Shown here: piece after piece, positions 1 through 10,128 of the stretch
How the letters are laid out: the number at the start of each line of letters is the position of its first letter
Position numbering within the stretch: the stretch's first letter is position 1
NCBI GenBank assembly: GCA_023434855.1
Contig: JAEYSJ010000229.1
Span: forward strand, 1-15,970
DNA: 15,970 nucleotides
Reading direction: 5' to 3'
Origin: Bacillota bacterium
GTDB lineage: Bacteria > Bacillota_C > Negativicutes > JAEYSJ01
Notes under the pieces: model-generated
What the model was told of the DNA's origin: nothing
Database searches by the model: none
What the model saw: the letters and a program-made list of their open reading frames with translations, nothing else
Made by a program: the position numbers and the translations under genes

Positions 1-87
1 GTACCTTATGACCGGCCGTACATAAAGCGGATTTACGTTGAGCAAGCACTTGCCACCATCGGTGATTACTACGAGGAGGATGATTAG
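1..87 (+). CDS. C-terminal end of an unidentified protein (partial)
   Basis: The window opens inside a reading frame that runs from base 1 to a TAG at 85-87 and encodes 28 residues ending in an acidic tail (YYEEDD). The frame overlaps the GTG/ATG start region of the HicB-type gene and carries that gene's GAGGAGG Shine-Dalgarno sequence (73-79), so the two are very probably co-transcribed and translationally coupled. Position suggests a toxin partner of the antitoxin. However, the visible tail does not look like the usual short HicA C-terminus, and I do not recognise the family. Confidence 0.55.
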   Translation, partial: VPYDRPYIKRIYVEQALATIGDYYEEDD

Positions 88-89
88 TG

Positions 90-458
90 ATGGAAAAAAA
101 TGTTGAGTATTACCTGTCTCTTCCTTATCGGTTTGAAATAATCCCAGCAGAAGAAGGTGGCTATGTTGGTGTAGTACCCGAATTACCTGGCTGCATTACT
201 CAAGGTGAGACGTTGGAAGAAACAGTACAAATGATTAACGATGCAAAACAGGCTTGGATTGAAACAGCCATAGAAGAAGGCATTGGTATTCCGGAGCCGG
301 TCGGCCACGACGAAGAATTTAGCGGTAAATTTGTTGTTCGGGTGCCTAAATCATTGCACAGGGATTTAGCTCGGAAAGCTAAGGAAGAGAATGTAAGTCT
401 AAACCAATTAACAACGTATTTGTTGTCATCAGGTATTGGTAAGCCATTAAAAAAATAA
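90..458 (+). CDS. hicB: HicB-family antitoxin
   Basis: This 122-residue protein has the two-part HicB layout. The N-terminal degraded RNase-H-like domain (about residues 15-70) carries the signature GYVGVVPELPGCITQGET. The C-terminal ribbon-helix-helix DNA-binding segment (about 80-115) reads KFVVRVPKSLHRDLARKA and continues through SLNQL. HicB proteins neutralise HicA mRNA interferases and repress their own operon. A GTG at 87 directly precedes the ATG at 90. Both are served by GAGGAGG at 73-79, and I prefer the ATG. The upstream frame overlaps the start, so the pair forms an operon. The partner's tail is not typical of HicA, so this may be an atypical toxin pair or a solitary HicB regulator. 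The gene lies inside the region I infer to be an integrated element, where toxin-antitoxin modules are common. Confidence 0.85.
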   Translation: MEKNVEYYLSLPYRFEIIPAEEGGYVGVVPELPGCITQGETLEETVQMINDAKQAWIETAIEEGIGIPEPVGHDEEFSGKFVVRVPKSLHRDLARKAKEENVSLNQLTTYLLSSGIGKPLKK

Positions 459-699: not shown

Positions 700-2169
700 A
701 TGAGAGTTCATATATATGCCCGCGTCAGCACTGACGCCCAGGCGGAGAAAGGATATTCACTGCCGACGCAATTGGAGGCCTGCCGGAAAAAGGCCCGGGA
801 AATTGGTGCTGCACATGTTGTCGAACATGTTGATGACGGATATTCAGGCGCGGATATGAACCGGCCTCATCTGGAAGAATTACGCAAAGCGGTGGAAGCA
901 TGCAAAGTTGACGCTGTTATTTGTTATGATCCCGACCGGTTGTCGAGAAATTTAACCCATCAGTTAATTATTACCCAGCAGATTGATAAGTCAGGTGCCC
1001 AGCTTATTTTTATTTCAGGAACTTATGAAAATACACCGGAAGGAAAGCTTTTCTACGCTTTAAGAGGCGCTGTTTCAGAGTTTGAGCGTGAAAAAATAAA
1101 AGAACGTTCCATGCGCGGCAAACGCGGCAAAGCCAATGCCGGCAAAATTGTTATGAATACCCGGCCGACAGGCTACAACTGGGATGCTGAAAATAGCATG
1201 TACATACCCAATAAAGATGCCGGGCTTATCAGGCGATTGTTTCATCTGGCTGCGGCGGGTATGAGTCTCTCCAAGATAACAAAGCGTTTAAACGGGGAAG
1301 GGATTTCATCCCCGAAAGGTTCTATCTGGCAGCCGGCTACTATTTCGCGAATACTGAAAAATCCCTTATACTACGGTGAAGCAGTACAGTTTCGCCAGAG
1401 GAGGGAAAAAGAAAATGACAAGCACGTTACTCACATCAGAGATAAAGGAGAATGGACAATTGTCCAGTGCCCGCCGATAGTCTCCCGTGAAGATTTTATA
1501 AAAGTACAGGCTAAGGCAGTCCAAAATAAACGATTTTCTCCCCGTAATACCAGGCACGCCTATTTACTGCAGAATATCATCAAATGCGGTGTCTGCGGTC
1601 AGCCAATGTATGTTGCTATGCATGGTCACAGTAAGCATTATTATGTTTGCTCCAGCCAGCGTAAAAGAAGACAAACAGGCGAGAAAGGCTGCAGCAATAG
1701 AGGGATACAGGTTGAAATACTCGACGAAGAAGTGTGGAAGCTGTTGACGGAAATGGTGCTTAAGCCCACCCGCATCAGGCAGCTTTTGGTCGAAACAAAG
1801 CTGCGCACTGGGTCTGTTGATCATCTGACCAAACTGCGGAAAAGGGAGGAAGAACTGTCCGGGCGGAAAAAGAAAGTATTGCAGCAATTTACTCTGGGGC
1901 GCATCGATGATAATGAATTGGATGCAGCATTAAAGCAGATCCAATTATTGCTTGCCGAAGTTGAGCAACAACTACGGGAGCATCAAAATGCTGCCAAACT
2001 GCAATCTGTAGATGTCCGCACCGGGAACTTTATTGCCGCCATGCAGCAGAAACATAACTGCCGCGATGCCTGCATGCAAGCACTGTCAGCAGTATATGTG
2101 TCCCGTACAGATAAAAACAGGGGACGATATGCCAAAGCGGAAATAAATGTGCGCATAATTCCACGATAG
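700..2169 (+). CDS. Large serine recombinase (site-specific integrase/excisionase)
   Basis: The protein is 489 residues. Residues 2-150 form the resolvase catalytic domain, opening YARVSTDAQ with the nucleophile Ser10 and Arg8, followed by YDPDRLSRN and EFEREKIKERS. A recombinase (DNA-binding) domain follows at about 165-265 (ISRILKNPLYYGEA). A zinc ribbon has Cys296, Cys299, Cys317 and Cys331. A charged, leucine-rich coiled coil lies at about 375-425. This is the layout of phage and ICE integrases and of sporulation-specific excisionases such as SpoIVCA. I start at ATG 700 because the upstream in-frame TTG at 688 overlaps the Shine-Dalgarno GGAGG (690-694, 5-nt spacer). The gene ends about 90 bp before a 5'-truncated catalase gene in the same orientation, as expected for an integrase beside its attachment site. 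It appears intact; whether it is active cannot be read from sequence. Confidence 0.93.
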   Translation: MRVHIYARVSTDAQAEKGYSLPTQLEACRKKAREIGAAHVVEHVDDGYSGADMNRPHLEELRKAVEACKVDAVICYDPDRLSRNLTHQLIITQQIDKSGAQLIFISGTYENTPEGKLFYALRGAVSEFEREKIKERSMRGKRGKANAGKIVMNTRPTGYNWDAENSMYIPNKDAGLIRRLFHLAAAGMSLSKITKRLNGEGISSPKGSIWQPATISRILKNPLYYGEAVQFRQRREKENDKHVTHIRDKGEWTIVQCPPIVSREDFIKVQAKAVQNKRFSPRNTRHAYLLQNIIKCGVCGQPMYVAMHGHSKHYYVCSSQRKRRQTGEKGCSNRGIQVEILDEEVWKLLTEMVLKPTRIRQLLVETKLRTGSVDHLTKLRKREEELSGRKKKVLQQFTLGRIDDNELDAALKQIQLLLAEVEQQLREHQNAAKLQSVDVRTGNFIAAMQQKHNCRDACMQALSAVYVSRTDKNRGRYAKAEINVRIIPR

Positions 2170-2257
2170 GGGATTCGTTAGCTGGGAAATTATCGATAGA
2201 TGGAAAGCATTTATAGTACATCTGTTTATTGACTAAATGTGTAATTGCAATACTTCT
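2170..2257. other. Inferred element/chromosome junction (att site region)
   Basis: Catalase homology begins abruptly at the ATC codon 2258, and the integrase gene stops at 2169. The crossover should therefore lie within or next to this 88-bp stretch. It contains an imperfect dyad, CATTTA (2208-2213) and TAAATG (2234-2239), flanking TAG..CTA-like bases, as could be found in a serine-integrase half-site pair. The core dinucleotide cannot be fixed without the other end of the element. Confidence 0.4.
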
Positions 2258-2674
2258 ATCGGCACCGAAGAAATGGCCCATATGGAAATGGTCGCCGCCC
2301 TTGTATATAAGCTAATGGACGGAGCCACCCCTGATGATTTCGTAGCCGCCGGGTGGGGAGGGCAATGGGCACAGCATGATTGCGGCTTGTTCTGGAGCGA
2401 TGCAAACGGGGTACCTTGGTCGGCAAAATATATCGCATGCTTAGGCGATCCAATTGCTGATTTGACTGAGGATATGGCGGCAGAGCAAAAAGCGCGTGCT
2501 ACTTATGAACATCTTATTGCTGCTACTGACGACCCGATGGTAAAAGATACTCTACGCTTCCTGTGGCAAAGGGAAGTAGTACATTTTCAACGTTTCGGCG
2601 AAACGTTGAATGAGGTTCAGGAATGGATGAGAAACAGTAAGCATGTATGGACAGGACATAAAATGGATGACTAG
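2237..2674 (+). pseudogene. 3' part of a manganese catalase / CotJC-type spore coat gene, 5' end missing
   Basis: The 145-codon frame matches the manganese catalase/CotJC family from IGTEEMAHMEM to its C-terminus; GDPIADLTEDMAAEQKARATY and REVVHFQRF are diagnostic. Four of the five expected dimanganese ligands are present: Glu12 and His15 (spacing 3) and Glu83 and His116 (spacing 33). These spacings match Glu66/His69 and Glu148/His181 of Lactobacillus plantarum catalase. The N-terminal helix carrying the first ligand Glu, about 60 residues in CotJC, is absent. The first seven codons are unrelated, follow an in-frame TAA (2234-2236) and have no Shine-Dalgarno, so expression as it stands is unlikely. 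The recombinase lies just upstream. The missing 5' half may sit at the far end of the inserted element, in which case this is a split gene rather than a dead one. A strong terminator follows. Confidence 0.85.
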
Positions 2675-3021: not shown

Positions 3022-3189
3022 AAGACATTGGGGACGGTTCTACTGTCTCACTTATTTTTATTTGTTATTTTGATAATTAAAAATGAACCAGTATGAGTGA
3101 TATTAAAAGAGACCTTGTTTCAATCCAACGAGACGGACGAACTGTTACTTAGTCTTTTGGGTGAGACGATAGAACCGTCCCTGTGTCTT
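3022..3189. mobile_element. MITE-like inverted-repeat element, about 168 bp
   Basis: A 30-base arm at 3022-3051 (core GGGGACGGTTCTACTGTCTC) is nearly perfectly repeated in inverse orientation at 3161-3189 (core GAGACGATAGAACCGTCCC). About 109 bp of AT-rich sequence without a credible gene lies between. From recollection, GGGACGGTTCT...GTCTC ends recur in Firmicute genomes beside IS200-like/REP-associated tyrosine transposases, so a non-autonomous element is likely. No transposase is present here. Confidence 0.65.
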
Positions 3190-8369: not shown

Positions 8370-9185
8370 ATGACAAACCTTGAAGCAATACTTCAGGTTG
8401 CAAAATTGTTCCATGAGGCGAGCGTCCACGATGTATCTATTCTGGTTACTGACGCTGATGCAAAAGTAGTCGAATACTTGCCGGACACCCAAGTTAAGAC
8501 CAACGTGAAGATCGGCGATGTTATGGCGGCGGGCCCGGTAAAACAAGCTATTGCTGAAAGAAGAAAAGTTGATAGTGTTATTCCTGAGCATATTTATGGC
8601 ACAAGAATCAAGGGGACGATGATCCCGATAATTGAAGAGGACGGGCAGGTTTCCGGGATGCTGTCTACTTCTACAACCACCAAAACCCGGGACTCTCTCT
8701 ACAGTTCTGCCCAGTCAATAGCAGCAACAGCTGAGCAAATGTCCGCAACAGCGCAAGAACTGGCTACAACTGCCGCTAAATTGGCCGAGGATTTGGATAA
8801 AGTCCGGCAGGGCAGCGAAACTGTGCTTACTGAGATTAATAAAACCGGCGACATCTTAAAATTTGTCAGCGATGTCGCTTCCAATTCCAATTTGCTTGGT
8901 CTTAATGCTGCCATTGAGGCGGCCCGGGCCGGTGAACACGGCCGGGGGTTTGCCGTTGTCGCTGAAGAGATTCGCAAGATGGCGGCAAACAGTACGCAGT
9001 CAGTTGAGGAAATCAGAAAAATTTTGCAAACCATCCAGAATGAAACGCAATTTGTAGTGAAAACTGTAATCAGCACCGCGGAATTAGGGGAGCGGCAGGC
9101 AGCGGCTACTGAAGAGATTGCCGCTTCCATGAATAATTTAGCTATGTCCGCTTCAGAAGTGGAGAAAGTCGCGGAAAAAGCATAG
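8370..9185 (+). CDS. Soluble methyl-accepting chemotaxis-type protein, copy 1
   Basis: This 271-residue protein has no signal peptide or membrane segment. Residues 1-105 form a small sensor-like domain ([21 protein letters not shown] ... [17 protein letters not shown]), compatible with a PAS/Cache fold. Residues 110-271 are a shortened helical signalling domain. Its hairpin tip at about 172-205 ([20 protein letters not shown], then [14 protein letters not shown]) is the CheA/CheW-contact region of chemoreceptors. The length and lack of membrane helices resemble the soluble receptor YfmS of Bacillus subtilis. GAGGAGG (8356-8362) precedes the ATG by 7 bases. It is followed by a close paralogue 131 bp downstream. 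Placement between transporters and methyl-transfer genes suggests it senses an intracellular substrate or product of this pathway (inference). Confidence 0.88.
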
Positions 9186-9315: not shown

Positions 9316-10128
9316 ATGACAATTGATGAAGTCATTAAGGCTGCCGGAGTTTTTCGGGACTTAAACGTTTTCGACTGTTCAATTATGGTGTGTGACACTG
9401 AAGCGAAAATTCTTCACTATGAACCTGCCGCCACATTTCATGCCACAGTTACAATTGGCGATACGGCAAAAGGTGGAGCCATCCTTGAATGCATCAAGAC
9501 AAAACAAAAAATTGTAAAAGAGGTTCCCAAAGAAATTTACGGCCTGCCGGTAAAGGCCATAGTAAAACCGGTATTTAACGAGGATGGGGAGTTTATCGGC
9601 ATTGTCGGCGCTGCTATCAGCATGCAGACTCATGAAATGCTGCATAATGCTGCCGCAACGATAGCTGCGACTACCGAGGAATTGACAAGCACAGCGGAAA
9701 ATCTAGCCGTATCTGCCGGTCAATTAGCCGAAAATTTGACGCAGGTTCGCCAGGGCGGGGAACGCGTTCTTGCGGAAATCGGCAAGACGACAGATATCTT
9801 ACGGTTCGTCAGTGAAGTTGCCGCCAATTCGAACTTGCTGGGACTTAATGCCGCTATTGAGGCGGCAAGAGCCGGGGAACACGGGCGCGGTTTTGCCGTA
9901 GTAGCCGAAGAAATTCGCAAAATGGCCGTGAACAGCGCAAATTCGGTCAAAGATATAGCTGCTATTCTGAAAAATATCCAGCATGATACTGATTATGTAG
10001 TTGGCACATTGGCAAAAACGGTGGAAATGGGCAGCCTGCAGGCGGAAGCGACAGAACAGATTTCCGCTTCAATGCAGCAGCTGGCGTCAACGGCGGCTGA
10101 CGTGCAAAAAGTTGCCGAGAATGTATAG
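9316..10128 (+). CDS. Soluble methyl-accepting chemotaxis-type protein, copy 2
   Basis: This 270-residue protein is a paralogue of the preceding gene and aligns along its full length. The signalling tip (about 172-205) is essentially identical ([20 protein letters not shown], then [14 protein letters not shown]). The N-terminal sensor domain ([21 protein letters not shown] ... [20 protein letters not shown]) has diverged. Shared tips with different sensor domains suggest the same signalling partner but different ligands. It has no membrane segment. GGAGG (9304-9308) lies 7 bases before the ATG. The corrinoid-protein gene begins 34 bp after the stop, so the two are likely co-transcribed. Confidence 0.88.

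Follow-up and report, generated by a model that had tools for sequence, protein, structure and literature searches.

A large serine recombinase element very probably splits the coat-protein gene cotJC in a Negativicutes contig and may belong to the skin-like, gene-rebuilding type

How does a manganese catalase gene come to begin in midsequence, close behind an intact recombinase gene, and could such a gene still be made whole? The question arises in the window, the 15,970-nucleotide stretch of DNA analyzed here, in which the 3' part of cotJC follows a hicB gene and a large serine recombinase (LSR) gene (Table 1). cotJC is a sporulation gene that encodes a coat protein. Past position 2674 the window continues with genes for transporters, an SLH protein, chemotaxis-type proteins, and a corrinoid methyltransferase system. 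The SLH protein is 44% identical to a protein of Sporomusa termitida and, taken with the relatives of the CotJC fragment, suggests a Sporomusaceae-like host. The only recognizable genes in the visible part of the element are those for HicB and the LSR; hicB is apparently cargo, provided that the element extends upstream, and the partial open reading frame at 1-84 that precedes it was without a family match. Beside the catalase, two 21-nt segments (3031-3051 and 3161-3181; GGGACGGTTCTACTGTCTCAC) form an inverted repeat with 90% complementarity and a spacing of 109 nt, which may be a small element of the MITE or REP type. Farther on, 8370-9185 and 9316-10128 encode adjoining, similar-looking chemotaxis-type proteins, followed by a corrinoid-binding protein and an MtaA/HemE-type methyltransferase.

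Table 1. Features at the split cotJC locus, in window coordinates.
Feature	Position	Strand	Basis
HicB-type antitoxin gene	87..458	+	Pfam HicB E=4.1e-13; HicB_lk_antitox 5.9e-12
Large serine recombinase (LSR), 489 aa from ATG	700..2169	+	Resolvase, Recombinase, and Zn_ribbon_recom domains
Element-side arm of attR	2170..2260	+	Reverse complement of about 2237-2260 fits tails of 5' stubs
Central GG predicted for the recombination site	2261..2262	+	Glycine codon of IGTEE; window arm and stub tails
cotJC 3' part, 137 codons and stop	2261..2674	+	Mn_catalase E=3.5e-36; 85-87% identity to three best intact relatives

A sequence-only reading of this DNA had held that the catalase frame begins abruptly at IGTEE, keeps four ligand positions, and runs to a normal end, and each of these points proved correct. 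The profile match in Table 1, computed on the frame 2237-2674, starts at profile position 60, and the frame closes with a TAG at 2672-2674. Residues aligned with E66, H69, E148, and H181, which we take to be metal-ligand positions of the Lactiplantibacillus manganese catalase, are present in the fragment; the remaining ligand is presumably the glutamate in GGPDGEL, which would fall in the missing 5' part. The three best relatives among those listed are 198-aa proteins, and the record of one is named Selenomonadales. The first in-frame ATG, at 2237, has no visible ribosome-binding site. The break falls at the glycine codon of IGTEE, and 88 bp separate the LSR stop from the ATCGGC at 2258. We found neither the far end of the element nor a 5' half of cotJC in the window, where the best N-terminal match had an E value of 0.083. 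The attR region also contains an inverted repeat (2194-2213 and 2242-2261, 75%) that ends at the predicted crossover.

The same reading had described an intact LSR on the same strand about 90 bp before the catalase, and the protein bears this out. It has the domains and the catalytic serine and arginines by which LSRs are recognized (Resolvase, Recombinase, and zinc ribbon), with no stop inside the frame. R8, S10, R80, and R83 do not vary among 14 aligned relatives (44-76% identical to the window LSR), and these four residues and Y6 are likewise invariant in an alignment with ten other LSRs that are 19-23% identical to it. The short distance between its stop and the break also places the recombinase near the attachment site, as in the class with which we compared it, the sporulation gene-intervening elements (skin, vfbin, gin, yin, and SPbeta/spsM). 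A search of genome contigs with the window LSR returned five loci at 30-40% identity, none titled Negativicutes. Pattern scans for a sporulation-type promoter gave no match upstream of the window LSR and nothing callable in the relatives' upstream regions, and the element part visible in the window held no candidate for a directionality factor.

The fragment search yielded 7997 matches past the threshold, of which 120 were listed and 35 of the listed sequences were inspected. Four proteins (P0005, P0014, P0020, and P0043) start with nearly the residues that precede GTEE in the window (MRNCNTSFGTEE and variants, compared with MCNCNTSIGTEE in the window), and the starts of two more (P0066 and P0081) are related to them. 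These residues appear to be element DNA read in frame, so that the arm would be conserved across differing host genes. Another break, located a few residues before this one (AKA-LTDIGTEE), was present in P0016, P0028, P0029, P0039, P0051 (Pelosinus sp. sgz500959), and P0052 (Pelorhabdus), as well as in the IMG/VR record L014.

Pieces corresponding to the missing half were seen in other records. With the first 62 CotJC residues as the query, 2649 short proteins matched at E<=0.001, and we inspected 45 of the 120 listed. Some were contig-edge partials, and many left the catalase sequence at the IGTEE or the AKA-LTDIGTEE break point. In one class of stubs, LTDIG is followed by KEDIQLPI, KEVIQLPI, IEVIQLPI, or KEVLEILN; this class includes P0244 of Sporolituus thermophilus, whose LSR (P0133) is 46% identical to that of the window among the listed LSR relatives. 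Stubs of the window class end soon after the break. When attP was taken as an inverted repeat and the window arm was reverse-complemented about the GG at 2261-2262, it read IEVLQLHI. With best codons, the tails of P0249, P0248, P0244, P0253, and P0245 fit this arm at 21, 20, 19, 19, and 18 of 24 nt, whereas the median over 56 tails was 14 of 24 nt, and random tails reach the first-seven-residue scores of these five with a frequency of 0 to 0.006. Five of six tested tails, which were chosen after inspection, thus fit; that of P0241 does not fit the palindrome (0.27). Two tails outside the class score as well among all 56, namely P0262 (19 of 24) and P0292 (18 of 24).

Indirect evidence that the two sides of such breaks lie on one contig came from the sizes of the longest contigs. 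Among the listed matches, four pairs of stub and fragment have equal values (20798, 65501, 315344, and 392818), and stub P0241 shares a size of 6319 with P0128, an LSR 53% identical to that of the window. The closest listed LSRs (P0122-P0127, 69-76%) had no longest-contig size in common with any listed catalase piece. A DNA search of plasmids gave one catalase match. In viral contigs, the DNA pattern of the attR arm occurred in L197 and L198; we rejected both as chance matches, lying inside other coding frames and without a catalase piece.

The junction of the window is known from a contig, and it could in principle be an assembly chimera or a place where a recombinase and a catalase pseudogene adjoin by chance, but it recurs in independent proteins and matching stubs exist. 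We rejected both explanations because of this recurrence, and we regard them as scarcely credible. That a recombinase element splits cotJC, as had been proposed from the sequence, is well supported by the recurrent junction, by arms that fit an inverted repeat, and by two-ended examples in relatives, and we are highly confident that an element was inserted in cotJC.

Such two-ended examples come from clostridial relatives. In Monoglobus pectinilyticus (L104), cotJB is followed by the 5' portion of cotJC, an LSR-bearing element of 2.67 kb, and the 3' portion; a 12-base core (GGCGGTCCTAAT) is common to both ends, and joining yields a CotJC of 194 residues. A wider sample comprised 199 genomes of the phylum to which G002 belongs (its record is titled Clostridiales bacterium). 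A match was found in 127 of the 199, reaching at least 103 bits in 102 by our count of the listed rows. Fetched DNA confirmed a split copy in 11 of the 102 (G101, G049, G077, G075, G178, G164, G195, G116, G148, G203, and G106), a count that omits G015, which starts at a contig edge, and is low for splits at GGPDGE, which the search model under-counts. All 11 split genomes, when checked, carry SpoIVA. Unannotated cotJC 3' pieces starting near GTEE were also seen in Pusillibacter faecalis, beside a ParB gene (L103, 6019-6393), and in Paenibacillus cellulosilyticus (L102, 6001-6384). The cotJC gene of Paenibacillus sp. CC-CFT747 is divided between two overlapping frames (L007, 1528-2054), which cover residues 1-32 and 31-177; a frameshift is a likelier cause than an insertion.

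Splits were frequent in the genus of G077. Of 42 genomes searched, 35 matched, and these comprised 12 one-piece genes, 21 split genes, and 2 that were unresolved at contig edges (G232 and G234). The 21 splits lie at GGPDGE (1), at GTEE (10), at AAE|QKAR (8), or at both of the latter places (2; G229 and G239); G213 is counted with the eight single-site AAE|QKAR splits, its 5' side being a contig start that leaves a double split unproven. A break at each of the two places also occurs in G164, which does not belong to this genus. Eight two-ended elements in the genus measure 3.3 to 16.4 kb. The arms of L137 form GGTGTCATTTTGACCCTTCTGTA-GG-TACAGAAGGGTCAAAATGATACC, and the center is the same GG as that predicted for the window. 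When the halves were joined at the site, the frame stayed open through the junction at 13 of the 14 loci tried. The one failing locus is G239, in which the first aligned stretch starts in element sequence; the joined junction of G240 has Pro in place of Ala.

A different relationship between element and gene is conceivable, in which insertion leaves a restored gene: a whole cotJC, made up with sequence from the element or from a duplicate, would lie upstream, and the window piece would be a leftover. Three of the 11 split genomes (G116, G195, and G106) indeed hold an intact copy as well as a split copy lacking the first 27-29 residues. Their splits are at another site, however, and the window-class stubs stop soon after the break, and we consider this explanation very improbable. 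In these three genomes the shortened copy is on the same strand as the intact one (L142; L141 and L146; L145), and in G106 it is broken again near residue 80.

In the genus of G077, no aligned cotJC exon contains a stop codon, and G219 loses the normal cotJC sequence after residue 176. Pairs of GTEE-split genes had a median dN/dS of 0.082 (n=31; range, 0-0.166), GTEE-split genes compared with intact ones a median of 0.122 (n=83), and intact pairs over the same codons a median of 0.093 (n=61). For AAE-split pairs, the first exon gave a median of 0.017 (n=12; range, 0.008-0.064; intact, 0.119) and the last exon a median of 0.027 (n=27; maximum, 0.085; intact, 0.084). Split-split dN/dS is thus no higher than that of intact pairs. 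Hand-picked close pairs had the following synonymous and nonsynonymous differences (with the nonsynonymous number expected under neutrality): G218-G228, 39.0 and 1.0 (127); G212-G228, 21.5 and 5.5 (70); G212-G218, 42 and 4 (137); G221-G077, 13 and 0 (42); and G211-G220, 40.5 and 9.5 (136). Five picked intact pairs ranged from 0 to 0.14.

One and the same element is present in G212 and G213 (93.6 and 95.0% nucleotide identity over two long stretches), and its right part is also present in G228 and G218 (94.0 and 94.5%). The non-LSR genes of the shared element have dS values of 0.02-0.23 and the LSR one of 0.68. The element-gene values are within the cotJC range for G212, G213, and G228 and below the cotJC values of G218 (0.37-0.41), so the element in G218 may be younger. 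The LSRs of G240 and G241 are 97% identical, and AAE-site LSRs clearly move between hosts. Selection before insertion would therefore explain part of the signal, which may to that extent predate insertion. Yet with a split gene in 21 of the 35 genomes, relaxed constraint would be expected if such genes were dead, and it was not seen. Purifying selection on split genes, together with in-frame joining, supports gene rebuilding in the clostridial relatives.

The recombinases at cotJC were identified in the relatives' elements with a profile, and they are diverse. AAE-site LSRs form one family (66-97% identity). One GTEE-site family comprises L137, L194, L193, L196, L139, L164, and L195 (about 39-74%); a second comprises L011, L135, L169, and L185 (49-56%), known from the 3' side only, so that its exact crossover center is unproven. 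The window LSR, at 19-23% identity to the other LSRs tested, represents a further family. By these comparisons, at least four LSR families use cotJC, three of them apparently at the same glycine codon. In four GTEE-site elements (L137, L194, L139, and L196), a small open reading frame of 65-79 aa directly precedes the LSR gene and is a possible partner of the LSR; two of these are 38% alike over 55 residues, and two that were tested had no Pfam match. In one cotJC-splitting element (L139:15116-17721) there are two genes with collagen repeats, perhaps cargo of a spore-surface type; one of them matches BclA_C, though below the curated cutoff.

The element in the window could also be quite ordinary. 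A prophage, ICE, or IME might simply use cotJC as its attachment site, the gene being lost or dispensable and excision serving transfer. Attachment sites often lie in conserved coding DNA, four IMG/VR records (L011, L012, L200, and L201) end in cotJC pieces beside an LSR, and AAE-site LSRs move between hosts. The first three of these records are viral records of 31-46 kb; by eye, no phage gene was recognized in the elements of L104 and L177. The C. difficile prophage phi027 likewise has a CotJC-like gene beside its attR (PMC12122855, PMC11222575). Against an ordinary element stand exons without stops or relaxed constraint in the best-sampled genus, though 21 of its 35 matching genomes are split. 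We judge it the less probable account of the window, though one with a real chance of being right.

We favor, and consider reasonably likely, a skin-like element: the window would contain its right end, and its excision would make cotJC whole again, probably in the mother cell during sporulation. This reading is preferred because an LSR stands intact beside the break, the junction recurs, 5' stubs match, and relatives join in frame. The window would contain the attR end, the integrative element having inserted itself into the cotJC gene of a spore former resembling the Sporomusaceae and the LSR alone having recombined an inverted-repeat attP with an attB formed by the conserved IGTEE codons. 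About 61 cotJC codons would have been left upstream of the element and 137 downstream. The same LSR, with a presumed directionality factor, would excise the element precisely and leave cotJC rebuilt in frame. Such excision would most likely occur in the mother cell during sporulation: coat genes are expressed there, and, as for skin, that cell is not inherited. The mother cell dies, so the germ line would keep the element. That excision rebuilds cotJC in the window's host seems quite likely, and whether it is timed to sporulation there is evenly balanced. A skin-like role, which the sequence-only reading had raised, is supported in the clostridial relatives by in-frame joining and purifying selection, and for this contig it is a proposal.

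A broader reading is more tentative, and we hold it somewhat less probable than its opposite: cotJC would be a general landing pad of spore formers on which at least four distant LSR families have converged, the coat catalase arising only after one or two excisions. If so, in some genera most species carry a cotJC gene that is divided into two or three parts and fully maintained by purifying selection, comparable to introns but at the level of DNA and linked to spore development; the window would be the Negativicutes version. The sporulation intervening elements named in the literature cited here are a handful of cases; a coat gene that distantly related recombinases split again and again in Negativicutes and Clostridia, and probably Bacilli, and whose pieces selection maintains, would suggest that developmental DNA excision is common rather than exceptional. 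Such splits would offer a large set of natural replicates with which to ask how directionality factors gain sporulation control and why integration is tolerated in genes of a terminal cell, and they would account for some of the manganese catalases annotated as truncated.

Within the titles and abstract beginnings of the open-access literature, our search found no report of cotJC as the target of an intervening element, and the main text of the LSR-discovery papers checked contains neither "catalase" nor "cotJC." In the consulted portions of the phi027 reports, the CotJC-like gene beside attR is not described as split or rebuilt (PMC12122855, PMC11222575). The closest parallels are the skin elements of sigK in B. 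subtilis and C. difficile (skinCd), which bear an LSR, lie inside a sporulation gene, and rebuild that gene on excision (PMC5025042). Their target is a sigma factor, whereas that of the window is a coat enzyme. In skinCd, the LSR is constitutive and the directionality factor is specific to the mother cell (PMC5025042). The gin element in gerE of B. cereus ATCC10987 resembles the window in being an LSR element, not necessarily a phage, in a sporulation gene with a short shared core, but it has three recombinases and a known partner, GirX, whereas the window has one LSR and no visible partner; the LSR and factor of gin are both made at sporulation (PMC5595907). The yin element in yabG of C. botulinum is, like that of the window, an intervening element in a late sporulation gene, but it is reported from one isolate (PMC10747680), whereas the split cotJC recurs widely. 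Supported by its relatives, cotJC would thus be a new target gene for an already known, skin-like type of element; more surprising is that the gene is split recurrently and, in some genomes, twice.
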